Under the pieces are notes generated by a model. The model saw only the letters and a list, made by a program, of their open reading frames with translations. It was not told where the DNA came from and ran no database searches. Source: a virus. Taken from it: a stretch of DNA of 64,000 nt. How positions within the stretch are numbered: position 1 is the stretch's first letter; the number at the start of each line of letters is the position of its first letter. The stretch lies in IMG/VR virus record IMGVR_UViG_3300024520_000069, positions 1-64,000 of that record; one strand, 5' to 3'. Positions 1-23,859 of the stretch are shown here, piece by piece. The position numbers and the translations under genes were made by a program.

Positions 1-1
1 C

Positions 2-199
2 TATACATGGCTGGCTATCTACGAAAACGACGAGTGGCGAATTCGTGCGGGATGTCGCAATTTCTCGATCCCTGAAGCACAGGAGCACTGGACCGCAGAT
101 GATTACGACGGCCCTGACAGTGTGAAGAACACCATCGATAACGCACTGGACTGGGTGCTGGGGCAGGCACTTAAGAGCACAAAGGAGGACATGACATGA
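2..199 (+). CDS. C-terminal part of a cysteine-repeat family protein (5' truncated)
   Basis: The window opens inside a gene; the frame from base 2 is open for 65 codons and stops at 197-199. The product matches the C-terminal module of the next two genes almost residue for residue: [21 protein letters not shown], then an EAQEHW motif and an acidic helix ending in a DWVL motif. By analogy the missing part should hold cysteine triplets, but this cannot be seen. The tail after DWVL differs from the other copies. The stop overlaps the next start as ATGA, so it is the first visible member of a coupled run. Function unknown. Confidence 0.85.
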   Translation, partial: YTWLAIYENDEWRIRAGCRNFSIPEAQEHWTADDYDGPDSVKNTIDNALDWVLGQALKSTKEDMT

Positions 200-741: not shown

Positions 742-1265
742 CAACATGGATCACAGATGACAATGGCAACGAGGCCAGCGTCGAGTACTGGGGCAGCGTT
801 GAGGCAGCAGAGGCGTCACTGAAGACGTTGGTCAACTGCCGCAACTGCACCAACTGCACCAACTGCCGCAACTGCCGCAACTGCCGCAACTGCCGCAAGA
901 GCCGCGTCTGCCTCAACTGCCGCAACTGCACCAACTGCTATGACTGCTCTGACTGCCACGACTGCCACGACTGCTATGACTGCTATAACTGCCACGACTG
1001 CCACGACTGCCACGACTGCGAATACTGCGATTTGCGGATATATCATGTCGCTGTCCCTGTGGTGGACCTGCGCGGCTATACATGGCTGGCTATCTACGAA
1101 AACGACGAGTGGCGTATTCGTGCGGGATGTCGCAATTTCTCGATCCCTGAAGCACAGGAGCACTGGACCGCAGATGATTACGACGGCCCTGACAGCGTAA
1201 AAGCAACCATCGATAACGCACTGGACTGGGTGTTGGAACAGGACACATCAAGGAGGACATCATGA
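738..1265 (+). CDS. Cysteine triplet-repeat protein, copy 3
   Basis: A tandem paralogue of the preceding gene, 175 residues, nearly identical at both ends and different in the repeat. Between residues 34 and 97 there are 22 triplets, 21 of them with cysteine; the eighth reads RKS, so Ser55 breaks the register once. The second half of the array favours YDC and HDC where copy 2 favours RNC and HNC, so the repeats diversify while the flanks are conserved. The C-terminal module again carries GCRNFSIPEAQEHW. It is ATGA-coupled on both sides and preceded by AAGGAGG. Function unknown; a metal-binding or protein-surface role is only a guess. Confidence 0.85.
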   Translation: MTTWITDDNGNEASVEYWGSVEAAEASLKTLVNCRNCTNCTNCRNCRNCRNCRKSRVCLNCRNCTNCYDCSDCHDCHDCYDCYNCHDCHDCHDCEYCDLRIYHVAVPVVDLRGYTWLAIYENDEWRIRAGCRNFSIPEAQEHWTADDYDGPDSVKATIDNALDWVLEQDTSRRTS

Positions 1266-1720
1266 CAAGCAAACAGGAACTGGCTGACAGACTCAGCCAC
1301 TTCGCCATCAGTGACGGCTATAGCAGCATCGGTGCTTGGAAGGTCCGCGAGATCATCGAAGCCCTGTTACATGAAGAGGACAAGGGTTTTGACGCCGGTG
1401 CCCACCTCAAGGCTGGGGGCAAGGTGACATATCCCAGTCTGGAAGGATACATGATGATTGTTGGCGAAAAAGTGAGCGTCTTTAATAGGCAGGGCGAGTG
1501 GCAACATCGTGCCGATGCCTCTGACCTCCTGCGGGATGACCTTAAGCCTTACGAGGAACCTGCCCGTGAAAGGGGTTGGTACTGGTGTGGTTACGGGGGT
1601 GACCGCCGCCCCTTGTGGTGGAACGGGGCAGACTGGCGGCTAGCCCCCGACGGACAGTACACGCTGAATAGCAACGTTACCAACATCAACCCCCAACGTA
1701 TCGTGGAGGATATGTCATGA
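1262..1720 (+). CDS. Hypothetical protein with AHLKAGGKVTYP motif
   Basis: A protein of 152 residues, not recognised. An N-terminal helical part (residues 1-45) is followed by AHLKAGGKVTYP, a YMM motif and VSVF, then a tryptophan-rich C-terminus (RGWYWCGYGGDRRPLWW). The AHLKAGGKVTYP...YMM...VSVF block recurs in the partial gene at the right end of the window (63791-64000), so the two are paralogues. AAGGAGG lies just before the start, which overlaps the previous stop as ATGA. No catalytic motif is visible. The block may be a small beta-rich domain. Confidence 0.75.
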   Translation: MTSKQELADRLSHFAISDGYSSIGAWKVREIIEALLHEEDKGFDAGAHLKAGGKVTYPSLEGYMMIVGEKVSVFNRQGEWQHRADASDLLRDDLKPYEEPARERGWYWCGYGGDRRPLWWNGADWRLAPDGQYTLNSNVTNINPQRIVEDMS

Positions 1721-1917
1721 CGCATCCGGTATTAAGAACAGTTTGGACCGACATCACAAAGTTTGTAAGTGGGCTGGTTGCCATAATTATCCTAGGCATT
1801 GCGTTCTTTGCCCCACTAATAGTGGCCACCCTCACAGACAACCATTACTGGCTGGGTCTGTATATAGGGTACGCCCTGCTCATCTGGCTCATGACGTTAT
1901 ATCGTCGCACATATTGA
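1717..1917 (+). CDS. Small membrane protein, two predicted helices
   Basis: A protein of 66 residues with two hydrophobic stretches: residues 17-38 (LVAIIILGIAFFAPLIVATL) and about 43-60 (YWLGLYIGYALLIWLMTLY), ending in basic RRTY. That is the shape of a two-helix inner-membrane protein. The start overlaps the previous stop as ATGA and GGAGG lies upstream. A small two-helix protein can be a holin, but the lysis genes are elsewhere (19.1-20.0 kb), so a role at the host membrane early in infection is more likely. Function unknown. Confidence 0.65.
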   Translation: MTHPVLRTVWTDITKFVSGLVAIIILGIAFFAPLIVATLTDNHYWLGLYIGYALLIWLMTLYRRTY

Positions 1918-1927
1918 GGACAGTATC

Positions 1928-2140
1928 ATGAATGAACTTGAAGCCCTGCGGGCAGTGATCATAAGTTACGAAACCGCTTATCCAGTCATGGCGTTCCCTG
2001 AACTGGACGATGATGAATGGGCTTACATCCACGAACGTATCGGCAAGTCGATGACCTCAAGGCTTCACGCAAGCTGGGGGCGGCACATCATCCAGTCCAT
2101 TATGAGAATGGCAAAGGAGAACGAAGATGAGGGCACTTGA
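1928..2140 (+). CDS. Hypothetical small protein
   Basis: A protein of 70 residues, largely helical and acidic at both ends, with an ELDDDEWAYIHERIG stretch in the middle. Not recognised. It lies 10 bp after the membrane-protein gene, with GAGGA at 1916-1920 as ribosome site, and its 3' end overlaps the next gene by 14 bp. Composition is GC-rich like its neighbours. Confidence 0.65.
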   Translation: MNELEALRAVIISYETAYPVMAFPELDDDEWAYIHERIGKSMTSRLHASWGRHIIQSIMRMAKENEDEGT

Positions 2141-2621
2141 TCTTAGCCGGGAACTGACCCGGAAAATTGTTGAGCTTGAGATGGAAATCGAACGCCTCAA
2201 AGCTGATCGCTCTGCCGATCATGTAGTGGTAGACCCCCGCTGCGACAAAGGTATGCACTGCTACAGCCGCAGCATGAACCAGCCGTATCCTCGCCTCTGC
2301 ACACGTTGCAGGGAGCCGGAACCAGAGCGCAAGGGCAGGATCAGTCGTCGGCCTATGCCAGCCGGTGATGGACTGACGAAGTTCAATATGCGGACAAGCC
2401 ACGAAGAGAGTGACAGGTACGGGCAATCTGTTGTGGCCGATGCCGAACAACTGATGCAGGACCAGTTTGCCAAGAACACGGCGGCACTGGTGGAAGAGAA
2501 CACTCAGCTACGTTTGTCCCTGCGGGAGATGCTGGTGCAAGCCAACGCCCACCCTGCTGGTGTAGGACACTGGGAACAGCGGCACCGTGCGCAGGAGTTA
2601 CTTGGGGAGGAAGTGGGATGA
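2127..2621 (+). CDS. Hypothetical protein with short cysteine cluster and coiled coil
   Basis: A protein of 164 residues. Residues 1-30 are a charged helix (LTRKIVELEMEIERLKAD), followed by a GMHCYSRSM...LCTRCRE segment with three cysteines that could help bind a metal, then a second predicted coiled coil near residues 108-140. Not assigned to a family. It overlaps the previous gene by 14 bp and the next by 4 bp (ATGA). Confidence 0.6.
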   Translation: MRALDLSRELTRKIVELEMEIERLKADRSADHVVVDPRCDKGMHCYSRSMNQPYPRLCTRCREPEPERKGRISRRPMPAGDGLTKFNMRTSHEESDRYGQSVVADAEQLMQDQFAKNTAALVEENTQLRLSLREMLVQANAHPAGVGHWEQRHRAQELLGEEVG

Positions 2622-2854
2622 CTGACATTGTAGAGAGGTTACGACTGTCGTGGGCTACAGATATGTCGATCATCTCGCAAACAGACAAATGGATGCGTGA
2701 GCGAAGAGAAGCCGCTGACGAGATCACCCATCTCCGCAAGGTGGCGGACGTGTTGTCTACCGAGCTTACCATGGCAGAAGAGGAACTGGCGTGTGCGGAA
2801 GATGAGATCACCCGCCTCAATACCCAGATGCGTGAGTTGGAGGACAAGACATGA
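2618..2854 (+). CDS. Ead/Ea22-style small coiled-coil protein
   Basis: A protein of 78 residues opening with MTDIVERLR and containing EAADEITHLRKVADVL, a pattern common in small accessory phage proteins of the Ead/Ea22 kind. The remainder is one long charged helix with heptad character, suggesting an oligomeric coiled coil. The function of such proteins is unknown. GGAGGAAG lies just upstream. Its stop at 2852-2854 overlaps the ATG of a following frame that is closed by an amber codon. Confidence 0.65.
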   Translation: MTDIVERLRLSWATDMSIISQTDKWMRERREAADEITHLRKVADVLSTELTMAEEELACAEDEITRLNTQMRELEDKT

Positions 2855-3060
2855 GCTAGAGGACCAAGACATTCCTTGTCTACCCGCCTGACCATGAGCC
2901 TCTGACGGGCACTCATGTTATCTGCGAGAGCAAGGGCGCTGCGAACAAGGTCGCGCAGAGATTGGGGCCGGGGGCCGAGATACACGAAAGTCTGAGCGAG
3001 AAACGACCCAATGGTGGGCACGCTTATTACACTGAGAGGGTATGGACGCTACATGACTGA
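2851..3060 (+). pseudogene. Small coupled gene interrupted by TAG at codon 3
   Basis: The ATG at 2851 overlaps the preceding stop as ATGA, exactly like its neighbours, but codon 3 (2857-2859) is TAG. Beyond it the frame stays open for 66 codons to TGA at 3058-3060 and reads like a real protein: TKTFLVYPPDHEPLTGTHVI, then a SKGAANKVAQRLG helix and NGGHAYYTERVW. No other good in-frame ATG follows. Either this is a recent nonsense mutation, a sequencing error, or a gene needing amber suppression. Other genes here end normally, some with TAG, so genome-wide recoding is unlikely. Confidence 0.55.
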
Positions 3061-7889: not shown

Positions 7890-8330
7890 ATGGATACACA
7901 GATTAAGTATAAGCAGCAGAACAAATTAAAGACAGAACAAACTGCTCATCCAACAAAATATCCACAGGGACATTTTAAAGATAAGCCCTGCGGTATATGT
8001 GATGTCATGTACTCCCCTCAAGCTCCGAGTAGTAAGTACTGCTCTGATACTTGCGCCCATACAGCACTCACTTCAAGATACTTAGAACGTACATACAATA
8101 TAGACTACAAGAAATATATAGATATGTATGATACACAGGAAGGTAAGTGTGCTATATGTGGTGGTGATGGGTTCACTATGGCTGAACATCATAAGTTAAA
8201 ATTAGTAGTAGACCATTGTCATGCTACTGGTAAAGTCAGGGGATTGTTATGTCATAACTGTAATAGAGGGCTTGGTCTTTTTAAAGACAGTAAAGAAAGT
8301 TTATCAGCAGCCCTAAACTATTTACATTAA
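7890..8330 (+). CDS. Recombination endonuclease VII-like protein
   Basis: A protein of 146 residues. The C-terminal half matches the endonuclease VII family (T4 gp49): EGKCAICGG, then LVVDHCHATGKVRGLLCHNC and NRGLGLFKD, where the two CxxC pairs hold zinc and DHCHATG is the active-site region. An additional N-terminal zinc-finger part (CGICDVMYS...YCSDTC) precedes it. GGAGG lies upstream of the ATG at 7890. It could resolve branched replication DNA before packaging, or be a homing enzyme of the same fold; its isolated, AT-rich position fits either. Confidence 0.85.
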   Translation: MDTQIKYKQQNKLKTEQTAHPTKYPQGHFKDKPCGICDVMYSPQAPSSKYCSDTCAHTALTSRYLERTYNIDYKKYIDMYDTQEGKCAICGGDGFTMAEHHKLKLVVDHCHATGKVRGLLCHNCNRGLGLFKDSKESLSAALNYLH

Positions 8331-8335
8331 TGGGC

Positions 8336-8363
8336 TTGACATGCCTGAGAATATCTATATAAT
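8336..8363 (+). promoter_or_regulatory. Sigma-70 promoter ahead of ssb
   Basis: TTGACA at 8336-8341 and TATAAT at 8358-8363 are both perfect consensus hexamers, 16 bp apart. It lies just after the endonuclease VII-like gene and about 70 bp before the SSB start, so it should restart transcription for SSB and possibly the nuclease genes. The -35 is part of TTGACATG, which recurs at 14334 and 52841. Confidence 0.8.
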
Positions 8364-8433
8364 CACTAAATGAAACGGGCAGGATAGTCTGTCCACATAT
8401 TTGAAACGACTACCAGAAAGGAACATACCTATT

Positions 8434-8895
8434 ATGACAATCATCAACGGAACTGCACACTGGGCTTCTATCACCTCACCTAACACTACCTTTGAACCGA
8501 CGTGGCAGATTGATGTGTCACTTGATAAGGCTAATAAGGCTAAGGTTGTGGCTGATGGACTTAAGGTTAAGAACAAGGGAGATGACCGTGGAGACTTCGT
8601 ATCCCTGAAGCGTAGGACTCATCGTAAAGATGGCAAGGATAATCAGGCACCTACCCTGATTGATAAGAAGAAGCGCCCCCTTAATGTACTCGTAGGTAAT
8701 GGGAGTATTGTTAATGTTAAGTATGCCGTGTTTGAGTATAACAATCAGTTTGGTTCTGGCATTGGTGCTGACCTGAAGGCTGTGCAGGTACTTGAACTGG
8801 TAGAGTATGGTGATGATGAGGACTTCGATGACCTCTCAGACGATGATGCCGGTGATGATGATGACTTCGATGATATCCCACTCGCCGCTGAATAA
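8434..8895 (+). CDS. Single-stranded DNA-binding protein (T7 gp2.5-like role)
   Basis: About 153 residues from the ATG at 8434, which has AAAGGA upstream; the frame also opens at a TTG further up, which is less likely. The body looks like an OB-fold phage SSB (W-Q-I-D-V-S strand, many lysines, then the strand VNVKYAVFEY). The last 30 residues are almost entirely acidic with phenylalanines (DDDDFDDIPLAAE), the tail by which such proteins recruit polymerase and helicase. It has its own consensus promoter, in line with the large amounts needed. Confidence 0.85.
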   Translation: MTIINGTAHWASITSPNTTFEPTWQIDVSLDKANKAKVVADGLKVKNKGDDRGDFVSLKRRTHRKDGKDNQAPTLIDKKKRPLNVLVGNGSIVNVKYAVFEYNNQFGSGIGADLKAVQVLELVEYGDDEDFDDLSDDDAGDDDDFDDIPLAAE

Positions 8896-8925
8896 CTAAG
8901 GTAATATAACAGGTGGCGTAACCTC

Positions 8926-8993
8926 ATGGGCCACATGTGTGTGTATATGTGTAGTTCTTTAACACAATACATATGTGTGTGGCCCATATTTTT
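8926..8993 (+). terminator. Long hairpin with T-run between ssb and exonuclease
   Basis: ATGGGCCACA at 8926-8935 pairs with TGTGGCCCAT at 8978-8987, a perfect 10-bp stem. The 42-nt interior can itself pair (TGTGT with ACACA). ATATTTTTG follows immediately, so it looks like an intrinsic terminator, probably leaky, that would keep SSB expression above that of the downstream genes. It could instead be an RNA-processing hairpin. Confidence 0.6.
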
Positions 8994-11110: not shown

Positions 11111-11704
11111 ATGGCACTACAATGGGGACGCCGATGTATGCATTGCAATGGCACTACAGAAGGGGTAGGGTCAGTACCTTACCTCTGTAGTAACTGTGGT
11201 GACCCAGCGTCACTAACTAAATGGATGGAAGATGATTTGAACGCTCGTTTCAGAGCAGTATGGGATAGTTATGAAGGAGATTTAGAGATGATGTTAACTA
11301 AAGAATCTATAGTGGGTGAGTTCCATGAGGCAATGGATAGTACACCCGAAATGTACAAGGACTTGATAGCCCTACGTATGAAGCTGATCAAGGAAGAAGC
11401 TGCTGAGGTATGTGATGCCCTCACTGACTTGGTCCTCTACAACAACGGTGACCTTGAAGGGCACAGGCGGCGTGAGGAACACCTCCTTAAAGAACTCTGT
11501 GACCTACAATATGTCTTGTCTGGTACAGTGTACGACTTAGGTTGGACAAGCGTCTTCAGCCCTGCATTTAACAGGGTACATAAGAGTAACATGAGTAAGT
11601 TGGGTGTGGATGGTAAACCCATCAAGCGTAAGGACGGTAAAGTATTGAAGGGGCCTAACTATGCCCCACCATATCTGGAGGATTTGATTGATGAACACAA
11701 GTAA
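11111..11704 (+). CDS. MazG-like nucleotide pyrophosphohydrolase with N-terminal zinc ribbon
   Basis: A protein of 197 residues. Residues 10-40 hold CMHC...CSNC, a zinc ribbon. The rest matches all-alpha NTP pyrophosphohydrolases: KLIKEEAAEVCDAL (ExxE motif) and HLLKELCDLQYVL (ExxD motif) provide the magnesium-binding acidic residues, followed by NRVHKSNMSKLG and a GPNYAPPYL tail common in phage members. Such enzymes hydrolyse NTPs or dNTPs, or may act on (p)ppGpp. AAGGAG precedes the ATG. The 3' end overlaps the RNR gene by 14 bp, linking it to nucleotide supply. Confidence 0.8.
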   Translation: MALQWGRRCMHCNGTTEGVGSVPYLCSNCGDPASLTKWMEDDLNARFRAVWDSYEGDLEMMLTKESIVGEFHEAMDSTPEMYKDLIALRMKLIKEEAAEVCDALTDLVLYNNGDLEGHRRREEHLLKELCDLQYVLSGTVYDLGWTSVFSPAFNRVHKSNMSKLGVDGKPIKRKDGKVLKGPNYAPPYLEDLIDEHK

Positions 11705-14147
11705 TTACGGACCACAATTGGAAGCAGCCCAAGTACTTGATGCTGAGAAGTATCGTGGTGATGGCGAGTCTTTCTATGAGAAATGTTGTAGGCTTGCTGG
11801 TAAGTATGCTGACTATGAAGAGCATAGGGAGAAGCTACAGGACATCTTCCTTAACCAGAGGTTCTTGGCAGGTGGACGTATCCAAGCACCTAATGGGAGC
11901 AGCCACAACTGCTTCGTATCACAGACTATTGAAGACAGCATGGACTCCATCATGGATGGGGCAGCTAAAGCAGCACAGACCATGCGTATGGGTGGAGGTA
12001 TTGGTTATGACTTCAGTAAAATTAGGCCCAGTGGTGATCGTATTGTCTCTATTGATAGCTCTGCTTCTGGCCCCCTTTCCTTTATGGATATCTATGACGC
12101 TGTATGTAACACTATTGTTAGTGCTGGCCACCGTCGTGGAGCTCAGATGGGGGTCCTCCGAGTAGATCATCCTGACATCCACAAGTTCTTGAGGGCCAAG
12201 CAGAACAACGGTAAGCTCACCAACTTCAACATCAGTGTAGGCATCACTGACAAGTTCATGCAAGCAGTGGAAGACTGTGACTACTTTGATCTTGTCTTTG
12301 ATGGTAGGGTATACGAGACAGTGGATGCTGGTGACCTGTGGGATGAGATCATGCGCTCCACATGGGACTGGGCTGAGCCGGGAGTCCTGTTCCTTGACAG
12401 GATTAATGAGATGAATAACCTCCACTACTGTGAGGACATACAGGCTACCAATCCTTGCTTACATCCTGACTCTATTGTTGAGACAGTGCATGGACGTGTG
12501 AAGATTAAGGACATCAAAGAACCAACACAAGTATACACTATGGATACGGACGGTTCTCTTGGTATTTCTGAAGCCACAGCTTCTTGGATATCTAAGAAGG
12601 GTGTCGAGACCATCAACGTAAACACCCGTAATGGTAAGACTGTACGTGTCACTAAAGACCACCTCATCCACACAGACAACGGCTGGAAACAGGCAGGACA
12701 GTTACGTGTGGGTGAACGGGTTACCCAGCTCTGTAGAGCACGGAGAGGTGTCGCTTACTCTGGTGTTAAATTAACTACAGAGGACAACCGAGCGTACAGG
12801 ATGGAGCACCGTATGGTGGCCAACGCAGTCTATGGAGTCGGGGAAGGTGATGACGTACACCACATTGATGGGGATACTTACAATAACTCCATTGATAATC
12901 TTGAGGTTATGCCACATAGCTTACACAGCTATCTGACAGCAACACAGGACAATCCCCAGACACACCAACGCCACACTAAACTGGGAGACTTCAAAGCTAC
13001 AGGTGTTACACCTAAGACTGTGATGCCTATGCCAGAGGACCTTCGCTCTAACATGAAGAATCACTTCGGTAACTGCGTATCAAGCATCACTGAGGGTGAG
13101 GTAACGGATGTGTATGACCTGACTGTCTCAGGTACACATAACTTCATTGCTGATTTCACGGTGGTTCATAACTGTGCGGAACAACCGTTGCCACCTAATG
13201 GTGCTTGTCTGTTGGGTTCGTTTAACCTGACTAAGTATGTACAGACTGCTGATCATTTAGAGATATCAGGTGATCATGAAGTATGGAGTAAATTACATAT
13301 CTTCAACTGGGATCAGTTCAAGCATGACATCCCCCATGTGGTGAGGATGATGGACAATGTTATTGACCTTGCCCAGTATCCCTTGCCTGAACAGGAGAAT
13401 GAAGCTAAAGGTAAGCGTAGGATGGGCTTAGGTATCACAGGCTTAGCCAACGCTGGTGAGGCTGTGGCTGGTCAGTATGGTTCTGATGCGTTCATTCGCT
13501 TCACAGAAGATGTGATGTCTGCCCTACGTGACAACACATACCGTGCATCTGTGGCCTTGGCTATAGAGAAGGGATCGTTTGATCTGTTTGATCGTGATCA
13601 ATACCTTGAGTCCCCATTCATTAAATGCTTACCGATGGATATCTATGATGACATTAACAAACACGGGATACGGAATAGCCACCTTCTTTCTATCGCTCCC
13701 ACTGGCACTATTAGTTTCACTGCTGATAACGTCAGTAGTGGGATTGAGCCAGTTTATTCCATCGTTACAGACAGAGTTGTCCAGAGACCTGATGGTCCAA
13801 TCGTTGTTCGCCTTGAGGATTACGGTAAGAGAGTCTTCGGCGTTGATGGTATTGTGGCTGACGCCCTGCTTGTGGATGAACATCTTCATGTCCTCCTTGC
13901 TGTTCAAAAGTACGTTGATAGTTCCGTTAGTAAAACTGTTAACGTTGGTGGGCATGTAACCTTCAATGAGTTCAAGGACATCTACATGAAAGCCTATCAT
14001 GGTGGGGCTAAAGGCTGCACCACATTCAGGGCAAGTGGTAAGAGGTTCGGACAAGTCCTCACTGCTGTTGATACTGAAGAAGAAGAACTTGCTGAAGGTA
14101 CAGCTTGTTTCATTGATCCAACCACAGGTAATAAGGAGTGTTCATAA
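11691..14147 (+). CDS. nrdJ: Class II (B12-dependent) ribonucleotide reductase containing an intein
   Basis: An 818-residue precursor; after removal of a 239-residue intein the mature enzyme is 579 residues. Class II features include SHNCFVSQTIEDS (Cys74, redox partner), GGGIGYDFS, HRRGAQMG, and ATNP joined to CAEQPLPPNGACLLGSFNL, which resembles NPCGEQPLP of class II enzymes rather than the NLCxE of class I. The later SIAPTGTISF and GIEPVYS also fit. It reduces ribonucleotides with adenosylcobalamin, so the host must make or take up B12. Start: ATG at 11691 with GGAGG nine bases upstream; a TTG one codon earlier is less likely. It ends with a cysteine (NKECS) that may serve re-reduction. Confidence 0.9.
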   Translation: MNTSNYGPQLEAAQVLDAEKYRGDGESFYEKCCRLAGKYADYEEHREKLQDIFLNQRFLAGGRIQAPNGSSHNCFVSQTIEDSMDSIMDGAAKAAQTMRMGGGIGYDFSKIRPSGDRIVSIDSSASGPLSFMDIYDAVCNTIVSAGHRRGAQMGVLRVDHPDIHKFLRAKQNNGKLTNFNISVGITDKFMQAVEDCDYFDLVFDGRVYETVDAGDLWDEIMRSTWDWAEPGVLFLDRINEMNNLHYCEDIQATNPCLHPDSIVETVHGRVKIKDIKEPTQVYTMDTDGSLGISEATASWISKKGVETINVNTRNGKTVRVTKDHLIHTDNGWKQAGQLRVGERVTQLCRARRGVAYSGVKLTTEDNRAYRMEHRMVANAVYGVGEGDDVHHIDGDTYNNSIDNLEVMPHSLHSYLTATQDNPQTHQRHTKLGDFKATGVTPKTVMPMPEDLRSNMKNHFGNCVSSITEGEVTDVYDLTVSGTHNFIADFTVVHNCAEQPLPPNGACLLGSFNLTKYVQTADHLEISGDHEVWSKLHIFNWDQFKHDIPHVVRMMDNVIDLAQYPLPEQENEAKGKRRMGLGITGLANAGEAVAGQYGSDAFIRFTEDVMSALRDNTYRASVALAIEKGSFDLFDRDQYLESPFIKCLPMDIYDDINKHGIRNSHLLSIAPTGTISFTADNVSSGIEPVYSIVTDRVVQRPDGPIVVRLEDYGKRVFGVDGIVADALLVDEHLHVLLAVQKYVDSSVSKTVNVGGHVTFNEFKDIYMKAYHGGAKGCTTFRASGKRFGQVLTAVDTEEEELAEGTACFIDPTTGNKECS
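12456..13172 (+). mobile_element. Intein with HNH endonuclease domain inside the RNR
   Basis: An in-frame 239-residue insertion. It starts at Cys (CLHPDSIVETVHGRVKI, block A), has RVTKDHLIHT as block B, and ends with VYDLTVSGTHNFIADFTVVH followed by Asn, the standard C-terminal block with His-Asn before the +1 cysteine. In the middle, DVHHIDGDTYNNSIDNLEVM is an HNH endonuclease motif, so it is a homing-competent intein rather than a mini-intein. It sits between Asn-Pro and the Cys of the RNR active-site loop, so the catalytic cysteine is also the splicing nucleophile. Confidence 0.93.
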
Positions 14148-14148
14148 C

Positions 14149-14337
14149 ATGACATCACCAATAGAACATGCAAGACTTGAGACATTGGCTGGACGTAAGA
14201 TAGCCAAGCATGATGTACTAGCACATCTACGCAGACTTAACATCGACAAAGGTACGGCAGGTATGGAAGATACTTATCAAGGAGGATATCATGCAATGCT
14301 CAGGGAAATCACCTTAGCTGTGGAGAAAATCCCTTGA
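14149..14337 (+). CDS. Hypothetical small protein after RNR
   Basis: A protein of 62 residues beginning MTSPIEHARLETLAGRKIAK, basic and helical. AAGGAG lies 11 bp before the ATG at 14149. It closes the replication operon; the -35 of the next promoter overlaps its last codons. No family recognised. Confidence 0.65.
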   Translation: MTSPIEHARLETLAGRKIAKHDVLAHLRRLNIDKGTAGMEDTYQGGYHAMLREITLAVEKIP

Positions 14338-14362
14338 CATGTATGCCTGACTAGTGTACATT
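14334..14362 (+). promoter_or_regulatory. Sigma-70 promoter of the radical SAM/glycosyltransferase cassette
   Basis: TTGACA at 14334-14339, a 17-bp spacer and TACATT at 14357-14362. The -35 is perfect and sits in the recurring TTGACATG; the -10 matches four of six consensus bases. It lies 115 bp upstream of the radical SAM gene, so the cassette can be transcribed independently of the replication operon. Confidence 0.7.
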
Positions 14363-14402
14363 CTAACCATAGCCTACCAATTGCTATAAGTTGTGGACTA
14401 CC

Positions 14403-14441
14403 GAGGAGTGGCAGGGTTTCCTCCTTTACTTGCCACTCCTC
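14403..14441 (+). promoter_or_regulatory. Leader hairpin, 11-bp perfect stem
   Basis: GAGGAGTGGCA (14403-14413) pairs perfectly with TGCCACTCCTC (14431-14441) across a 17-nt loop that contains TCCTCC. It lies in the predicted 5' leader of the radical SAM transcript and has no clear T-run, so it is more likely an mRNA-stabilising, processing or attenuation structure than a plain terminator. The pyrimidine-rich loop could also pair with purine-rich ribosome sites. Confidence 0.6.
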
Positions 14442-14477
14442 TAATACTTTAAAGGACATATAAAGGATTAAGACAAT

Positions 14478-15419
14478 ATGGCTTATACTATCACAGACAA
14501 GATCGACAACATCACAGGCATCCACGATAACTACCGCATCCCTAACCCTCCCCCACCCATCAGTGTTAAGATTGAACTGACAGGTAAGTGTAACTTCCGT
14601 TGCGCCTTCTGTGCTACATCTGACCACAAGCGCCCCATGGCAGAGATGGATCGTGGCCTGTACAGTGCAGTCCTTGATGAGCTTATGGATTGTGGTGTTA
14701 AAGAGGTGGGTATGTTCTACCTTGGTGAGTCTATGATGGTTAAGTGGCTCCCTGAAGCTATTGCAGAAGCTAAGGATAAGGGCTTTGAGTATGTCTTTCT
14801 CACAACTAATGGCTCCCTGTCCTCGCCTGATAAAGTAGAGGCGTGTATGGGTGCTGGACTTGACTCCCTCAAGTTCTCTCTTAACTATGCCGATGCTGAG
14901 CAGTTCGCTGAAGTGGCACGGGTTAAGAAGAGCCTGTTCAATGTCATGCTTAACAACATCAAAGCTGCCCATGATGTTAGGGAAGCTAATGGGTTTGACT
15001 GTGGCCTGTACGCATCATACATTGACCTTGATGCTACACAGGATGACAAGATGAAGGCCCTCCTTGATGAGCTTGACCCATACCTTGATGAAGCCTACTC
15101 ACTCCCCCTGTACTCACAGGCTGATGAGACTGGTGCTGACAACGTAGGTCGTGGTTGGGATGTGAAGGCTGGTAATCCCGGTAGGGCTGGTAATATGCGT
15201 GAGCCTGTACCGTGCTGGTCATTGTTCTCAGAGACACGTATCACATGGGATGGTCGTGTTGCTGCATGCTGCTTCGATCATGAGCACAAGTTTGATATGG
15301 GTCCAGCCATTCCATTCATGGAGTCATGGCACTCAGATAAGTTCCAAGCCCTTCGCGCTGCACATCTTAAGAAGGATGTTGCTGGTACTGAGTGTGAAGC
15401 CTGTGTGGCCTATGGGTAA
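14478..15419 (+). CDS. Radical SAM/SPASM-type enzyme
   Basis: A protein of 313 residues. LTGKCNFRCAFCATS (Cys38, 42, 45) is the CxxxCxxC motif that binds the radical SAM [4Fe-4S] cluster; GMFYLGESMM and FLTTNGSLSS are the usual following strands of the partial TIM barrel. A C-terminal cysteine set (PCWSLF at 246, AACC at 264-265, CEAC at 306/309) resembles a SPASM or Twitch auxiliary-cluster domain, often seen in enzymes that modify peptides or sugars. It is the first gene after the 14334 promoter and heads a run with two glycosyltransferase genes, so its substrate may be a sugar or a glycosylated virion protein; that is inference. Confidence 0.85.
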   Translation: MAYTITDKIDNITGIHDNYRIPNPPPPISVKIELTGKCNFRCAFCATSDHKRPMAEMDRGLYSAVLDELMDCGVKEVGMFYLGESMMVKWLPEAIAEAKDKGFEYVFLTTNGSLSSPDKVEACMGAGLDSLKFSLNYADAEQFAEVARVKKSLFNVMLNNIKAAHDVREANGFDCGLYASYIDLDATQDDKMKALLDELDPYLDEAYSLPLYSQADETGADNVGRGWDVKAGNPGRAGNMREPVPCWSLFSETRITWDGRVAACCFDHEHKFDMGPAIPFMESWHSDKFQALRAAHLKKDVAGTECEACVAYG

Positions 15420-15588
15420 TTCTTTTAAGGTTAAGATAGAAACTGAACGGAACGATACAGAACAGTGCTATAACCACAAACTAACAGTAAACTATCCACA
15501 CCATGTAGTGTATTCGCCAAAGGTAGTTTTCACTGATGAGTATCTTGAAGAACAAGGTTTAACCATAGAGGATATATTGAAGATATGA
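15412..15588 (+). CDS. Small hypothetical protein in the radical SAM cassette
   Basis: A protein of 58 residues starting MGNSFKVKIETERNDTEQCY, likely beta-rich in the first half with an acidic helical end. The ATG at 15412 overlaps the radical SAM stop by 8 bp, and its own stop overlaps the next start (ATGA), so it is co-translated with both enzymes. It might be a partner, a substrate or a carrier; nothing in the sequence decides this. A longer in-frame start upstream would lie wholly inside the radical SAM gene. Confidence 0.6.
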   Translation: MGNSFKVKIETERNDTEQCYNHKLTVNYPHHVVYSPKVVFTDEYLEEQGLTIEDILKI

Positions 15589-16382
15589 CATATAACATTT
15601 ACATAGGCTATGATCCACGGGAGGACTTGGCATATAAGGTACTTGTCAAGTCTATCATGGACACAGCTTCCATGGGTGGTGATATTAATATTATCCCTAT
15701 CATGAGGGAGAATCTACGACATGCTGGTATCTATAAGAGGGGACATATGGATGTTGATGGTCAATGTTATGATGCCCTTGATGAGCGACCATTCTCCACA
15801 CAGTTCTCCTTCACCCGCTTCTTAGTACCAGTGCTCCAACAGTATCAAGGCTGGGCATTGTTCATGGACTGTGACATGTACTTGAGGACGGATATACGTA
15901 ACTTGTTCGACCTGTACTGTGACGATGATCGTGCCTTACTGTGCGTCCAGCATGACTATGAGCCGAGGTTTAGTAGGAAGATGGATAACCAGATACAGGA
16001 GTGTTACAGTAGGAAGAACTGGTCTTCATTTGTCCTATGGAACTGTGGTCACGTAGCTAACAGGGCCTTGACTATGAAGGCAGTTAATGAACATACAGGC
16101 GCATGGCTCCATAACTTTAACTGGATTGAAGATGATGACTTGATTGGACATCTCCCTGAAGAATGGAACTGGCTTGATCACTGGTCCCCTGAAACTATTG
16201 ATGCTAAGAACGTACACTTCACAACTGGTGGTCCCTTCTTCAGGGATTGGAAGCCTTCTAAGAATTGTGAGGTAAGGTACGCTGCTGAGTGGAACCATCT
16301 AGCTAAGGATATTGAGTCGAAGAACTTAGCTAAATTAATACCAGAATACACACCATACTGTTCATCTTTTGGAGACACATAA
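15585..16382 (+). CDS. GT8-like glycosyltransferase
   Basis: A protein of 265 residues. NIYIGYDPREDLAYKVLVKS opens a GT-A fold as in family 8 and similar nucleotide-sugar transferases. WALFMDCDMYL gives the metal-binding DxD (Asp95, Asp97), preceded by FSTQFSFTRFLVP. NCGHVANRALT and a tryptophan-rich segment near residues 190-200 fit the acceptor side. It would transfer a sugar from a nucleotide donor. It is ATGA-coupled to the small protein upstream and followed with no gap by the fusion protein. Acceptor unknown: virion protein, host surface glycan or modified DNA are all open. Confidence 0.8.
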   Translation: MTYNIYIGYDPREDLAYKVLVKSIMDTASMGGDINIIPIMRENLRHAGIYKRGHMDVDGQCYDALDERPFSTQFSFTRFLVPVLQQYQGWALFMDCDMYLRTDIRNLFDLYCDDDRALLCVQHDYEPRFSRKMDNQIQECYSRKNWSSFVLWNCGHVANRALTMKAVNEHTGAWLHNFNWIEDDDLIGHLPEEWNWLDHWSPETIDAKNVHFTTGGPFFRDWKPSKNCEVRYAAEWNHLAKDIESKNLAKLIPEYTPYCSSFGDT

Positions 16383-18665
16383 ATGATAACAATAGTAACA
16401 TCTATTCATAAGGACGGTATGGACACATACGGTCTCAACATGCTCAAGGCTGCTGAGAAGTATTGGAGTAAGAACCTTAAGCTCATCGTATGGTATCATG
16501 ACTTTGACATTGATAGCTACGATGTACCCCAATCCAAGAACATTACCTATCGTAACCTCAACCATATTGAGGACATGATCCAGTACCGTAAGGAGATGAA
16601 GGGTAACGATGGTACTCAGCATGGTAAGAACCCATACAACTGGCGGCTTGATGCTATCAAGTGGTGCCATAAAGTATATGCCATGACAGAGCAAGCCTTT
16701 GAAATGAGCGAGGCATCTGTTGATGCTGGCTGGTTGATCTGGCTTGATGCTGATACCATCACCCATACTAAGCTGAGTGAGGCTGACCTCAAGCCATTCC
16801 TACCAGAAGGTAAAGCCTTCGTACACCTTGGACGTACTGCCACTGACTATAGTGAGACATCCTTCATGGGCTTTAACCTCAAGTATGAGGCACCCCTTAA
16901 GATGTTGGGCGACCTACGTGGCATCTATAACTCCAAGGAGGTTGTATCTTATAGGGAGTGGCATGATGGGTTCATCATTGAGAGGCTCATCAATCAGTAT
17001 AGGGCACATGGCATGCCTGTCCTTAATCTTACACCTGAGTGTGAGACCCTTGATGCCTTTGGTGATTCCCCCTTGGCTAAATGGATGACACACTTCAAGG
17101 GTGACCTGAAGTTCAAGAGCCTTGGTGCTGGTGAGGTATCCCCTGATGTGGTAGGGCCTAAGAGATATAAACAGCTTGCTGACCTCATCAGACACTACGA
17201 AGCTAAGTCTGTTGTAGAGTGTGGCACATGGAATGGTGGTCGTGCCATTGAGATGGCATTGGCAGGGTTTGAGCATAGTGACACATTCTCATATGATGGG
17301 TATGACCTGTTCGAAGATGCTACGGCAGAGAGTGATGTGTTGGAGATGAATACTAAAGCACACAACAGTCTTGAAGCTGTGACTGGTAGACTTAACGCCT
17401 TCAAGGATAAGATGGCTGAGGAAGAGAAAGACTTTAATTTCTCTTTAACTAAGGGTGATACTAAAGAGACTATAAAGAGTGGCTCATTAACCTATGACCT
17501 TGCCTACATCGACGGTGGTCACTCATACGAGACATGTCGTTCAGACTATAATATGCTGAAGCACATCCCTGTCGTGGTCATGGATGATTATTTCTCAGCA
17601 GATAAAGATGGAAAGGTAGCACCAGATGAGCATCTCGGCACTAACAAAGTTATGGAGAACGATATTGAAAAAGGTCTCCGACGCGCTATCCTACCCTCAT
17701 CCGATCCTGTATTGGGAGGTGGGATCACACACCTTGCTGTTGTCTTAGCTGATCCTGATTTCCCTGATGTGCCTGTTGATCTCTTAAGGGTTCCTATTGT
17801 TATCAACCCTAAAGACTGTATGCCTGTGGAGTACATCCATAACAATGTGAAGGAGAACTATAAGCTCCTCCCAGAATGGGACTGGCTCAAGAAGTGTTCC
17901 ACATCTACCACACCTGTGATCGTCATCAGTGGCGGTAGTAGTGTGGACTTCGCAGAGGTTAAGGCTGTGAGGAAGAAACATAAGGACGCCATCGTTGTCT
18001 GCATCAAGCATGCCTATCCTAAGCTCCTGAAGCATGGCATCGTGCCAGACTACTGTGTCATCCTTGACCCACGTCCTATCACTGGGCTGAGTACACATGG
18101 TATCTTACGCAAAGACTTGTTCAAGAAGGTTAATAAGAAGACCAAGTTCCTGTTGGCCAGCATGACTGATCCATCTGTGACAAGTCACCTCCTTGAGAAG
18201 GGTGCTGATGTGAGGGCATGGCATGCCTACACTGATGCCATCATGGACATGGAGAACCTTGACAAGATGATGGTACACCCAGACCTCCCCATCCCTAACA
18301 ATACTACATTAGTTACAGGGGGAACCAGTGCCGCTATGAGGGCTATTGGGATGTTCCATATCTTTGGCTTTAGGGTGTTCCACCTGTTCGGCTTTGACTC
18401 CTCAGTACCAGAGGAGGACATGAGTGATGACATGAATGCTGAGACCACAGAAGATGGTCGGCCTAAGTACTTCAAGGTAGAGATTGATGGTGACGTGTAT
18501 AACACCACTGGTGAACTACTTGCCATGGCTCAAGACTGTGAGAAGCTGTTCGATAGGGAAGATGTGGATGTTAACTACATCTTCCATGGTAGGGATACCC
18601 TGATCTCTTCAGTGTATCGTATCTCTCGTAAGGCCCTTGAAGTTAAGTTTGAGGACTTGTTATAG
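16383..18665 (+). CDS. Glycosyltransferase - methyltransferase - DUF115 fusion protein
   Basis: A protein of 760 residues with three apparent domains. Residues 1-240: a GT-A type glycosyltransferase-like domain (ITIVTSIHKDGMDTYG; WLIWLDADTIT with Asp122 and Asp124). Residues 255-460: a class I SAM-dependent methyltransferase of the Methyltransf_24 kind (SVVECGTWNGGRAIEMAL as motif I; DLAYIDGGHSYE; VVMDDYF). Residues 505-760: a DUF115/Maf-like domain (PVIVISGGSSVDFAEVK; DYCVILDPRP; TGGTSAAMRAI; FHLFGFDSS), a family found in flagellin glycosylation and in an archaeal pterin pyrophosphokinase. One chain may therefore build and methylate a glycan. It directly follows the GT8-like gene. Confidence 0.8.
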   Translation: MITIVTSIHKDGMDTYGLNMLKAAEKYWSKNLKLIVWYHDFDIDSYDVPQSKNITYRNLNHIEDMIQYRKEMKGNDGTQHGKNPYNWRLDAIKWCHKVYAMTEQAFEMSEASVDAGWLIWLDADTITHTKLSEADLKPFLPEGKAFVHLGRTATDYSETSFMGFNLKYEAPLKMLGDLRGIYNSKEVVSYREWHDGFIIERLINQYRAHGMPVLNLTPECETLDAFGDSPLAKWMTHFKGDLKFKSLGAGEVSPDVVGPKRYKQLADLIRHYEAKSVVECGTWNGGRAIEMALAGFEHSDTFSYDGYDLFEDATAESDVLEMNTKAHNSLEAVTGRLNAFKDKMAEEEKDFNFSLTKGDTKETIKSGSLTYDLAYIDGGHSYETCRSDYNMLKHIPVVVMDDYFSADKDGKVAPDEHLGTNKVMENDIEKGLRRAILPSSDPVLGGGITHLAVVLADPDFPDVPVDLLRVPIVINPKDCMPVEYIHNNVKENYKLLPEWDWLKKCSTSTTPVIVISGGSSVDFAEVKAVRKKHKDAIVVCIKHAYPKLLKHGIVPDYCVILDPRPITGLSTHGILRKDLFKKVNKKTKFLLASMTDPSVTSHLLEKGADVRAWHAYTDAIMDMENLDKMMVHPDLPIPNNTTLVTGGTSAAMRAIGMFHIFGFRVFHLFGFDSSVPEEDMSDDMNAETTEDGRPKYFKVEIDGDVYNTTGELLAMAQDCEKLFDREDVDVNYIFHGRDTLISSVYRISRKALEVKFEDLL

Positions 18666-18666
18666 G

Positions 18667-19086
18667 ATGGCTAACTTAGGACCACTCAATGAGAAGCAGG
18701 AGAAGTTCTGTCAAGCCTATGTCCTGACACAGAATGGTGCAGCAGCAGCCCGTGAGGCAGGGTATGCTACTAAGTCTGCATCAGTGACAGGATATAAGCT
18801 GATGAAGGATGAGAGGATCAAGCTACGTATTGAAGACTTGGGTAAGGAGATGACAACAGAGATTGATGTTGTCACTGAACTTGAGAAGCAATACACTGCT
18901 GCACAACAACAGGGGCAAGGACAGGTAAGTCTTAAAGCCCTTGAACTCTTGTCGCGTGTGCGGGGTAATGCAGCCGATGAAGACCTCACAAATCCCCTCA
19001 TCCTTGAGAAGAATATTGTGAGATGTCTTGAGATACTTGGGGCTGATAAGGTTAACGAATTATTGGAGAGGTGTAGCTTTGACTGA
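18667..19086 (+). CDS. terS: Terminase small subunit-like protein
   Basis: A protein of 139 residues. LNEKQEKFCQAYVLTQNGAA followed by AREAGYATKSASVTGYKLMK is the helix-turn-helix opening of Terminase_2-type small subunits, and the rest is a helical oligomerisation part. It should recognise phage DNA and load the large subunit. It lies 31 kb from terL and on the opposite strand, which is unusual but not unknown. GAGG upstream is the only ribosome site and is spaced rather far, so translation may be coupled to the preceding gene. Confidence 0.75.
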   Translation: MANLGPLNEKQEKFCQAYVLTQNGAAAAREAGYATKSASVTGYKLMKDERIKLRIEDLGKEMTTEIDVVTELEKQYTAAQQQGQGQVSLKALELLSRVRGNAADEDLTNPLILEKNIVRCLEILGADKVNELLERCSFD

Positions 19087-20046: not shown

Positions 20047-23000
20047 TTAATTCTCCTGTGTTGTATTGAGTTTAGTATCTCTAGGCTTACTCTTCTTAAA
20101 GACAGCAGCCCCATCAAGGGCTTGCCACTGACGTATGAGGGCTTCCATTGGTAGTTTGTTCTCACCCTTACGCGCCGTTATCTCAAGATCAGAATCAATA
20201 GGGTCAGGACTGAAGACGTTCTCCCTTGCCAAGCTCATATGATCCCACAAGTTACTATTGAAATCCCTGCCGATGTTCATAGCATCAACCATCATACCAT
20301 CATTGAAGCCTAAGTTACGATAGGCATCCATAGTGGTCTTCAAGTCTTGATATCCTTCAAGCTTCTTCATCTGCCCATTATAGTAAGCAGCAAGCATGTC
20401 TTCCTGTGTATCCCTACTATCCCCAACATGGAACTCCTTAAGGATGCCATGTAATGGGTCCATAGAATCCTTGATCTTCCTCTTAGCACCACCAAGCTGC
20501 CAGTTAAATGCAGCAGTTAGGTCATGGTTACGTGGAGCGAGGCCAAACATAGCAGCCACGCCTGTACTTTCAGGATGCTGCTGTGCTGCATATTTATTAA
20601 AACCATCTTTGTTAATGGTGTCAGCACGTTTCCTCCACCACCTAACAAATCCGGGTTCGAAAGGTTCACCAGCCAGCCCTAATACAAACCCAAGCTGATC
20701 AGAGGTTTGGGCTTCCTGTTCTAACTTATCAAACCCTTTACCTTGTACACCATCAAGGATAGTTCTGGTGAGCATGGAAGGTTTGGTGAATGGCATGATC
20801 TGGTTCTCAACCAATCCCCACACATGCTTGTTAAGGTCCACATCTGTGTCAGCAGCAATGGCTGAATGGATAGCTACACCAGCAGATCGTACATAGTCAA
20901 AGGGATCAAGGGATGTTGTCTTAAAGAATGGTACATTCCTATGTCCAGTTTTCTTATCAGTCTCAATAGGTCCATCATAGATCACGTTGGAGTAGGCTTG
21001 ATAGTTAGGCATGGTGTGGCGTATATCCTCATCCTGTGTGGCAGAGATATCGTTACCAACACGGGACAACTCAGCCATAGCTGTGGGCATCATACCAACA
21101 GTAGTCATACCGGCAAGCCTCTTAGACGCTGCCTCAACCAAGTGTGGGTTACCACTACGTGCATCCTGCATGGTGTACTTGATAAGGTTCTTTGAGGTAC
21201 GGATCATCTCAGCAGGGAATGAGATGAAGTCACCAAATGGGGCCATACGTGCAGCCTGTACCAGCTTTGAAACCTGACCATAGTTAGGCATGAGGTCGCG
21301 TGTACGCTGTGATGCCATCTTCTCAAGACTATTAGCACCTTCCTTGACCAGACGATCTACCTCTTCTTGATATGTTGCCCTCTTAGCAAACGAGGACTTA
21401 GCAACCTTAGCTCTAGCAGCCATAAGTTTTCTATCAGCATCAGCCATCTTAGGGTAGGCTTTGGCAAGGTAATCCTTACTCTTCATGTAATGGATCATCT
21501 TGAATGTGTCATCTTCTGCCTGATAGGCTTGCATCAGCTTCTTATCAGCCCACCCCAAAGACTTATCCCACACCCTACGCGCCATCCTCTTACGCATATA
21601 CTTGTCTTGTGCGCTACCAAACTGTCCCATGTTCTGTTTAATCATGGACACTGTGGTGCCACTATCAACAACCCCAAGCCTCTGGAGTTCAGCAAGTTCA
21701 AGGCCAAGGGCTTCATCAGTGGTGCTGGTGATTTTCTTTGCCACATCCTTGTAGGCTTTCTTACCTATGGGGAGCATGCCATTAGCGGCAAGCATGGTGA
21801 CCTGACCAACAGTGTTGCCTACATGGGTGGCAGGGTTGTAGATGGTCTTGGATTTCTGTGTCAATGACTTACCCATCAACCACCACTTAGCTATAGGGTT
21901 ATTAGGGTTCTTAACATCAAGACCATCCCTCATAACTCTGGCATATGAAGGATCAACATACATGTGTGCCAAGTCAGAGTGTGGTTTGAAGTCAGACTTG
22001 AGGGCCTTATCACCTTTAGATAACTTATCAGTGAAGATACCCTTCATACGTCCCTCAAGGATTTGATCCATTGAGACAAGACTACCATCAAGTTCAGGTG
22101 AAGAGTAGCCTAACCTCTTACTATGTTTACCAGTCTTCTGAGATACCTTCGATGAAGCTATACCAGCCTTGGCTATACCAGAACTGATGAGGTTATCCTT
22201 AATTTCATCAAGGAACCTATACTCAGCCTGTATCTTAGCCATCTTCTCCATGGTCTTACCATAGTTACTGAAGGGATTCTTAGACTTACCATACAAGTTC
22301 TGAATAACTTTAGGCACCTTGGCACGGCCCTTGAAGATATCTGAAGTACTATGCATCACATTCTTACCTGTGATACTATCCAAGATATCCTGTGCTGCAA
22401 ACTGATCATCAGCTTTAATGAGCTTGAGGAGCTTGTCCTGTATGATGCGCTGATCAGCAGTACCATAATACTTCTTCACCCAGTTCATTGCGTCATGGAC
22501 AACCTTGTCATTCACGTCAGGGTTTTTAATACGCTTGGCCAGCTTCTTCTTAAAGGCTTGGTTGTCGAATACATCATAGGAGATGTTGAGGTATGTTCCT
22601 TTATTCTTATCCATGGAGATGGCAAGCTTACCCCCAACAATGTCATCTCGTAGAATGGCTGATGTGTTGTTGTCAATGTTATTACGCATCTTCCACAGGA
22701 GCTTACCAGCGCCCTTAGACACGCCATTGACAATGCTCATGGCCTTTGCATCACCATTCAAGGCAAGATTCACTGTATCTTCATAGAAGTCTTTAGGCAT
22801 AGGCTTGCCTTGTGCTTTGTAGCCATCCTTAATAGACTTACGGAACTCAACTTCAATGCCCTCAGCAGCGTCCATAGCAGCAGCACCAGCGTTATCCCTG
22901 CGATATGCGGCAGCAGCAAAGGCATCATCTGTGTTACGATTAGCCTTCAGCCATTCCTTACTCCACCGAATAGGCTTAGACTTATGTACTTTACCAAGTA

Positions 23001-23859
23001 CCTTCTGTGCTGAGGAGGACTTAAGCCCAGCCTTCAATAGCTTACCACCAACAATAGTTGCAGGAACTAAGGCACCTTCTAGGGCTAGGTTAGATACAAA
23101 GTTCTTCCCATATCGTGTGAGGTCTGAGTCATCTTCTTCAGACCAATCCAGCATGTGGGACTCATCAAGCCCTTCAGACATGGTGGCACCGGCAGCACTT
23201 GCCAAGCCCATACCAGACAAGTACTTAGCTTCAGCATACTTCTTCCTAGCCTTAGACAGTACAGCCCTCTGTGCTGGTGATGATGCTAAGGACTTAGCTA
23301 ATCGGTAGCCTTTAATACCAGCCTTACCAGCCTTGAATAAGCCGAGTGATGGGACAGCCCATGTGCCTACATCTCTGAGACCCTTCTTAAACCCAGCCCC
23401 AGTCCACTCATCTTCACCTGTGGTCTGTTCTTCAAGTGCATCATCAATGGTGAGGGAGCCTACACCAAAGTATGGGTCAGCAGCAGCATCTAAGTCCATG
23501 AGGGTTTCTTTACTGAACATGGTGCCGATACCCTCACCAGCTTCCCTTGCCCACTTACTCATGAAGTCTGGTGTGACGGCATGCCATAGGTCAGCAGCAT
23601 CACTGGCTGTCTCACCAACAATACCTGATAGGACATCCATACCCTTACCAAGACCCTCATTCTCCCCAACAGAGAAGTCCTGATCCCTGTAGCCTTTACT
23701 AGTCCACAGGTCAGCATAGACTCCATAGGCTTCATCATACTCTTCAGGTGTGATGCCTTTGTCATCCCTCATTTTAACGAAGGCTTCCTTATCCCCAGTA
23801 GCTCTGAAGGTCTGGGTCAGTTCTTGGAAGTCATTTGAGTAGGGGGAGAGTGTTCCCAT
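20047..23859 (-). CDS. Large internal virion / DNA ejection protein
   Basis: A protein of 1270 residues, the largest in the window, between fibre and lysis genes, where T7-like phages encode gp15/gp16. It is mainly helical with many charged stretches. The N-terminus (residues 1-60) is acidic, a hydrophobic glycine/alanine segment near residue 215 (GLASAAGATMSEG) could insert in a membrane, and the middle is lysine-rich. I see no lytic transglycosylase motif. The role as core or ejection protein rests on position and size; the sequence itself gives no fold I can name. Confidence 0.65.
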   Translation of the reverse strand: MGTLSPYSNDFQELTQTFRATGDKEAFVKMRDDKGITPEEYDEAYGVYADLWTSKGYRDQDFSVGENEGLGKGMDVLSGIVGETASDAADLWHAVTPDFMSKWAREAGEGIGTMFSKETLMDLDAAADPYFGVGSLTIDDALEEQTTGEDEWTGAGFKKGLRDVGTWAVPSLGLFKAGKAGIKGYRLAKSLASSPAQRAVLSKARKKYAEAKYLSGMGLASAAGATMSEGLDESHMLDWSEEDDSDLTRYGKNFVSNLALEGALVPATIVGGKLLKAGLKSSSAQKVLGKVHKSKPIRWSKEWLKANRNTDDAFAAAAYRRDNAGAAAMDAAEGIEVEFRKSIKDGYKAQGKPMPKDFYEDTVNLALNGDAKAMSIVNGVSKGAGKLLWKMRNNIDNNTSAILRDDIVGGKLAISMDKNKGTYLNISYDVFDNQAFKKKLAKRIKNPDVNDKVVHDAMNWVKKYYGTADQRIIQDKLLKLIKADDQFAAQDILDSITGKNVMHSTSDIFKGRAKVPKVIQNLYGKSKNPFSNYGKTMEKMAKIQAEYRFLDEIKDNLISSGIAKAGIASSKVSQKTGKHSKRLGYSSPELDGSLVSMDQILEGRMKGIFTDKLSKGDKALKSDFKPHSDLAHMYVDPSYARVMRDGLDVKNPNNPIAKWWLMGKSLTQKSKTIYNPATHVGNTVGQVTMLAANGMLPIGKKAYKDVAKKITSTTDEALGLELAELQRLGVVDSGTTVSMIKQNMGQFGSAQDKYMRKRMARRVWDKSLGWADKKLMQAYQAEDDTFKMIHYMKSKDYLAKAYPKMADADRKLMAARAKVAKSSFAKRATYQEEVDRLVKEGANSLEKMASQRTRDLMPNYGQVSKLVQAARMAPFGDFISFPAEMIRTSKNLIKYTMQDARSGNPHLVEAASKRLAGMTTVGMMPTAMAELSRVGNDISATQDEDIRHTMPNYQAYSNVIYDGPIETDKKTGHRNVPFFKTTSLDPFDYVRSAGVAIHSAIAADTDVDLNKHVWGLVENQIMPFTKPSMLTRTILDGVQGKGFDKLEQEAQTSDQLGFVLGLAGEPFEPGFVRWWRKRADTINKDGFNKYAAQQHPESTGVAAMFGLAPRNHDLTAAFNWQLGGAKRKIKDSMDPLHGILKEFHVGDSRDTQEDMLAAYYNGQMKKLEGYQDLKTTMDAYRNLGFNDGMMVDAMNIGRDFNSNLWDHMSLARENVFSPDPIDSDLEITARKGENKLPMEALIRQWQALDGAAVFKKSKPRDTKLNTTQEN

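Follow-up and report, generated by a model that had tools for sequence, protein, structure and literature searches.

A conserved phage glycosyltransferase unit beside terS and its recurrent but optional radical SAM partner

Within a 64,000-nucleotide stretch of phage DNA (positions 1 to 64,000 of IMG/VR record IMGVR_UViG_3300024520_000069, a record of 64,929 bases; hereafter the window), four genes occupy positions 14478-18665 between the genes for a ribonucleotide reductase (RNR; 11688-14147) and the small subunit of terminase (terS). As originally predicted, they lie on one strand, overlap or abut, and encode, in order, a radical S-adenosylmethionine enzyme (rSAM), a 58-residue protein, a GT8-like glycosyltransferase (GT) and a 760-residue fusion of GT, methyltransferase (MT) and Maf/DUF115 domains (GT/MT/Maf). 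Comparison with relatives defines a real, conserved and little described system whose constant part is GT8-like - GT/MT/Maf - terS, without the rSAM and the 58-residue open reading frame (ORF). The rSAM is a recurrent but optional partner of glycosyltransferases and not random cargo. Our preferred explanation, held tentatively and with chances a little short of even, is a phage module for soluble, cytosolic protein glycosylation that would use an rSAM-tailored sugar, probably on a virion protein, the gene block probably building an unusual methylated sugar.

The conserved transferase unit

The first core gene (15585-16382, plus strand) encodes a GT-A glycosyltransferase of 265 residues that matches phrog_28018 (8e-47) and reaches 15.4 bits against Pfam GT8, under the cut-off of 24.3, which is why we call it GT8-like. 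The best solved match of its profile is nevertheless a GT8 enzyme (E 0.01), and both aspartates of its DxD motif (D95 and D97) are invariant in 33 homologues. The second core gene (16383-18665, plus strand) begins directly after it, and its product comprises a GT-A domain (residues ~1-240), a class I methyltransferase (~260-460) and a Maf/DUF115 domain (~470-760). Pfam models for MptE-like (formerly DUF115; 3e-16) and Methyltransf_24 (5e-7) both scored over their cut-offs, and the N-terminal third has a GT-A fold. The AlphaFold model of the fusion was predicted with a pLDDT of 85.2 and a pTM of only 0.53, which leaves the arrangement of its domains unsure. Its best PDB match in Foldseek was the flagellin glycosyltransferase Maf (5mu5; E 1.7e-8, in a multidomain and poorly superposed alignment), with which it shares the DUF115/MptE-like central fold. 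Unlike Maf, it is fused to GT-A and methyltransferase domains and sits in a phage operon with terS. Maf enzymes transfer nonulosonic acid to serine or threonine of flagellin, and the fusion is not known to act on a flagellin. A protein of an uncultured Caudovirales phage (UniProt A0A6J7X5Q0) matches the fusion structurally over nearly its full length, with 31% identity, but is annotated solely as a methyltransferase-domain protein. The domain calls of the original prediction therefore hold for both transferases, and they support well its proposal of a glycan-building pathway with methylation.

Scans with the GT8-like protein yielded 82 IMG/VR relatives, of which the best 80 were kept (42-55% identity). 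A single-sequence IMG/VR scan with the fusion found nothing, and its relatives came from a profile scan that returned at least 584, the best 80 being examined. These two sets of 80 loci have only two loci in common (L025 and L034). A fusion homologue was present on the same locus in 64/80 members of the GT8 set, typically as the next gene, and loci mapped in full had terS after the fusion and RNR before the pair. Conversely, the GT8 gene was directly upstream in 72 of the 76 fusion loci with enough sequence, and terS was downstream in all 52 that extended far enough. The terS gene of the window (18667-19086, plus strand; PHROG and Pfam match) begins 2 bases past the stop of the fusion gene, and the tight spacing of the genes suggests translational coupling and co-expression with terS.

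The rSAM was found in neither set, so that the genes do occur apart in related phages, an outcome which the original prediction had named as one that would refute it. Consequently, the self-contained four-gene cassette once proposed gives way to a conserved two-gene transferase unit that is tied to terS and leaves out the first two genes, with the rSAM as an optional, recurrent addition. In other members of the lineage the slot between RNR and the transferase pair holds a 2-oxoglutarate-Fe(II) oxygenase, Hsp20, or a GDP-mannose dehydratase with a DegT aminotransferase; the rSAM and the 58-residue ORF are an insert in this variable slot. RNR itself is a poor marker of the lineage, since 78 of the 80 phage loci drawn by RNR as a control set lacked any cassette gene.

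The fusion also varies in composition. The GT-Maf fusions of L010 (8734-10383) and L011 (2207-3817) have no methyltransferase domain, which is therefore dispensable, and in L020 (6671-8373) a tandem pair of GT8-like genes precedes the GT/MT/Maf fusion.

The radical SAM enzyme and its neighborhoods

The optional partner gene (14478-15419, plus strand) encodes a 313-residue protein with matches to Pfam Radical_SAM (4e-14) and SPASM (PF13186; 2e-9) and a SPASM/Twitch-type C-terminus. In 21 members of its subfamily the cysteines of the CxxxCxxC cluster motif (C38, C42 and C45) and those of the C-terminal auxiliary-cluster domain (C246, C264, C306 and C309) are invariant, which bears out the predicted radical SAM/SPASM-type enzyme. 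The nearest folds to its AlphaFold model (pLDDT 86.5), ranked by Foldseek E-value, were DesII, MoaA, BlsE and BtrN, and BtrN was also the nearest solved structure by profile (4e-14). BtrN, DesII and BlsE act on sugar-like substrates, but their identity to the rSAM is about 15-18% and the match at the C-terminus is partial.

Foldseek did not separate sugar-type from peptide-type radical SAM enzymes, and the maturases SuiB and SkfB of ribosomally synthesized and post-translationally modified peptides (RiPPs) were among the structural matches. The rSAM might thus mature the 58-residue protein as a RiPP-like peptide that is then glycosylated, and the overlap of the two genes would fit such a role. 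The 58-residue ORF (15412-15588, plus strand), present as predicted, overlaps its two neighbors by 8 and 4 bases. It is an orphan, having no significant Pfam, PHROG or NCBIfam family and no relative in IMG/VR or the fetched loci, even where an rSAM adjoins a GT8 gene, and so supplies no conserved precursor. Curated RiPP models all scored below cut-off. Moreover, a two-cluster SPASM domain usually has more than four invariant cysteines outside the core motif, and the rSAM has only four. Peptide maturation appears very improbable on these grounds.

A single-sequence IMG/VR scan with the rSAM found nothing, and its alignment with plasmid homologues of 24% identity offered no usable stretch. A scan for a degenerate CNFRC motif first revealed the subfamily, and a subsequent profile scan gave 27 viral loci at 50-61% identity. 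Bacterial homologues are rare: 273 genomes of one class contained one other, 48 of a small class contained five, and 398 of the phylum contained six others at E-values up to 1e-50. The subfamily of the rSAM is thus tight and consists mostly of phage members.

Neighborhoods were counted in 19 non-redundant phage loci (window included) and in eight bacterial loci. A GT8 homologue was adjacent, or nearly so, to the rSAM in 12/19 phage loci, sometimes upstream and sometimes downstream, and another type of transferase took its place in three (L184, L193 and L194). L197 had a heptose-phosphate adenylyltransferase-like gene nearby, and no glycan gene was detected near the rSAM in the remaining three phage loci, so the partnership is not a fixed gene set. 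By comparison, the control loci contained a GT8 homologue of this kind in 2/80 cases and an rSAM in none. A Maf-type gene lies beside the rSAM in the window and in L194, and 4 kb away in L192, while a gene combining tetratricopeptide repeats (TPR) with a GT-B-like domain lies within 3 kb in 7/19 phage loci. In 5/8 bacterial loci the neighboring gene encodes a TPR protein that shares this C-terminal domain. Distant plasmid homologues are found among lipopolysaccharide (LPS) and nucleotide-sugar genes, and two loci combine the rSAM with a GDP-mannose dehydratase and a DegT aminotransferase. In 7/19 loci no more than about 7 kb separates the rSAM block from the major capsid gene. In five of these the block leads directly into head-tail genes, and the order, with variations, is capsid - decoration protein - TPR/GT-B-like - methyltransferase - rSAM - GT8 - SU10-type adaptor.

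Other features of these loci were noted. In the bacterial loci L205 (rSAM at 7896-8927) and L206 (7986-8948), genes named by eye as cytochrome d1-like, ScdA/RIC-like, NnrS-like and hemerythrin-like stand beside the rSAM, and no glycan gene was recognized. Two large phage contigs (236 kb and 395 kb; L049 and L050) carry NeuB-like and KdsA/KdsB-like genes close to separate GT8 and methyltransferase genes (assigned by eye except for the last two), and also an rSAM elsewhere (L188 and L190). Sialyltransferase-like genes of L193 and L195 were considered as DUF115 relatives, a relationship that profile comparison did not support.

Phylogenetic trees indicate how the rSAM reached the transferase unit. 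In the rSAM tree the window sequence falls into one group (100/99) with three bacterial sequences and those of phages L178 and L182, and L194 is placed elsewhere, even though the L194 locus repeats the order RNR - rSAM - GT/MT/Maf - terS of the window without a GT8 gene. Forcing the window and L194 sequences together was rejected (p-AU 1.9e-5), a value that is optimistic because the tested pair was picked after an earlier tree, though the likelihood loss of 67 units is large. The GT8 gene of the window, in turn, falls within a resident, rSAM-free GT8 clade (98/96). The transferase unit was therefore already in place when it gained the rSAM, which happened two or more times, and this repeated, independent addition argues more strongly than anything else for a joint function of the rSAM and these transferases.

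These patterns bear on whether the rSAM and the 58-residue ORF are independent accessory genes that entered the variable slot by chance. Their absence from all sampled relatives of the pair, the presence of unrelated genes such as Hsp20 in the same slot and the bacterial rSAM homologues that lack a glycan context would all be expected if this were so. However, a GT8 homologue or another transferase neighbors the rSAM in 15/19 phage loci, and the rSAM joined the lineage twice beside GT/MT/Maf, so that chance association seems improbable. The joint pathway once proposed for the four genes survives in part: rSAM and glycosyltransferases are linked in independent loci, but not as a fixed four-gene pathway.

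A putative protein-glycosylation module

In our preferred explanation, protein glycosylation in the cytosol, the module would be made together with the packaging genes. The Maf-type domain would place the first sugar onto serine or threonine of an acceptor in the cytosol, which would most likely be a virion protein that is not yet assembled or is being assembled. Extension of the glycan would fall to the GT-A domain of the fusion and to the GT8-like enzyme, the methyltransferase domain would O-methylate the glycan, and the rSAM may alter a sugar by dehydrogenation, epimerization or deamination, either on the nucleotide-sugar or on the glycan. The Maf fold and the lack of membrane segments in the cassette proteins, none of which looks membrane-bound, point to a cytosolic protein acceptor. 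Two kinds of cytosolic flagellin O-glycosyltransferase are described, Maf and the TPR plus GT-B enzyme FlmG (PMC11339370, PMC7591256), and both have counterparts beside members of the rSAM subfamily, which further supports such an acceptor. In other phages and in bacteria, transferases that neighbor relatives of the rSAM have the TPR plus GT-B-like architecture of FlmG (PMC7591256), but the likeness is one of architecture only and this type is absent from the window. The terS gene downstream in 52/52 relatives and the proximity of capsid genes in 7/19 rSAM loci suggest a link to the virion.

The substrate of DesII is a 4-amino-4,6-dideoxy sugar nucleotide. This compound and the loci with GDP-mannose dehydratase and DegT aminotransferase lead us to guess that a similar amino-deoxy sugar might be the substrate of the rSAM.

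Several observations weigh against the preferred explanation. Besides the absence of the rSAM from both sets of sampled transferase loci, some bacterial homologues have genes for respiration, nitrosative stress or zinc transport as neighbors and none for glycans, and RiPP maturases follow close behind the sugar-type enzymes in the fold matches of the rSAM. The GT assignment of the TPR proteins is weak, their C-terminal part resembling a heptosyltransferase at E 0.16. The window contains no GDP-mannose dehydratase, and none of the proteins searched was identified as an enzyme of nucleotide-sugar synthesis, so that the host must supply the sugar donors. A position next to structural genes does not prove a virion target. 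What the sequences show is gene order, domain identity, the conserved GT8 - GT/MT/Maf - terS unit and the recurrent proximity of rSAM and glycosyltransferases, from which the enzymatic steps, sugar, acceptor and purpose are inferred.

The same enzymes could instead remodel the host surface, changing the LPS or O-chain of a cell under infection, for instance so as to keep other phages out, with the rSAM making or tailoring the sugar. Distant rSAM homologues in LPS-type loci, a published interpretation of this kind for related pelagimyophage GT8 genes (PMC7029224) and the variability of the RNR-terS slot, as in other host-interaction regions, lend this possibility some weight. We nonetheless regard it as unlikely, given a cassette that lacks a membrane protein, a lipid carrier enzyme or a flippase, a Maf-type domain that points to a protein acceptor, and a constant position beside terS.

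Glycosylation of a modified base in virion DNA, as a defense against restriction, is a known activity of phage glycosyltransferases, and the cassette lies near replication genes. DNA was among the targets first suggested, but it is disfavored by the absence of a thymidylate-synthase-type base hydroxymethylase (PF00303 and PF02511) from the record, a contig not certified complete. The Maf fold is moreover that of protein transferases, and a DNA target is hardly probable at all.

Genomic setting and leader region

Other genes of the window encode a family-A polymerase, a primase-helicase, a Cas4-type exonuclease, an intein-bearing RNR, the large terminase subunit TerL and structural proteins. 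TerL is nearest to those of pelagiphages HTVC027P and HTVC023P and phage DSL-LC04 (~40%), and the polymerase to those of pelagiphages HTVC115P and HTVC103P; the phage is marine-type.

Upstream of the rSAM gene, the promoter and leader hairpin of the original prediction fared differently. The sigma-70-like candidate TTGACA-17-TACATT (14334-14362, plus strand) is intergenic, matches 10 of 12 consensus positions and is among the best of its region. However, the region holds 18 such sites against 20.5 in shuffles, and the window-wide count is likewise chance-like, so this promoter is plausible but not beyond chance. The hairpin (14403-14441, plus strand; 13-pair stem, 13-nucleotide loop) is real: the 109-nucleotide leader (14370-14478) folds at -32.6 kcal/mol (z = -3.4), and none of 200 shuffles was equally stable. 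It matched no family in Rfam.

An intein-like insert that includes an HNH endonuclease (residues ~257-495, ending in VVHN before the C-extein cysteine) interrupts the large subunit of RNR and is missing from the RNRs of relatives such as L177. Positions 1-3000 have a GC content of 53-57%, compared with ~45% elsewhere, and may be a foreign segment or a different module. A 1270-residue protein of the structural region (20047-23859) has no PHROG family match and has homologues (32-35%) in L131 and L194, which belong to the same lineage.

Relation to known systems and significance

No paper on this gene combination was found in the open-access literature. The claim that no phage pathway of this kind had been described is tempered by the hypervariable region of pelagimyophages, in which GT8 genes occur with radical SAM gene cassettes and the glycosyltransferases were read as modifying the host O-chain (PMC7029224). 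Phage GT8 and rSAM genes share one variable region there as well, but these are T4-like myophages, and the available text of that report mentions neither a Maf fusion nor linkage to terS.

Many phages might possess a dedicated O-glycosylation of virion proteins, in which flagellin-type cytosolic transferases (Maf or TPR) act with a mostly phage-borne, repeatedly and independently recruited rSAM that makes a sugar absent from host structures; in this broad form we consider the proposal doubtful. Hundreds of uncultivated phages carry the GT8 - GT/MT/Maf - terS unit and hardly any cultured phage record does, so that a widespread phage glycosylation system may have escaped study. An rSAM subfamily enriched in phages and tied to glycosyltransferases would represent new phage sugar chemistry, and it would offer a testable answer to the question of which targets the numerous glycosyltransferases of marine phages act on.

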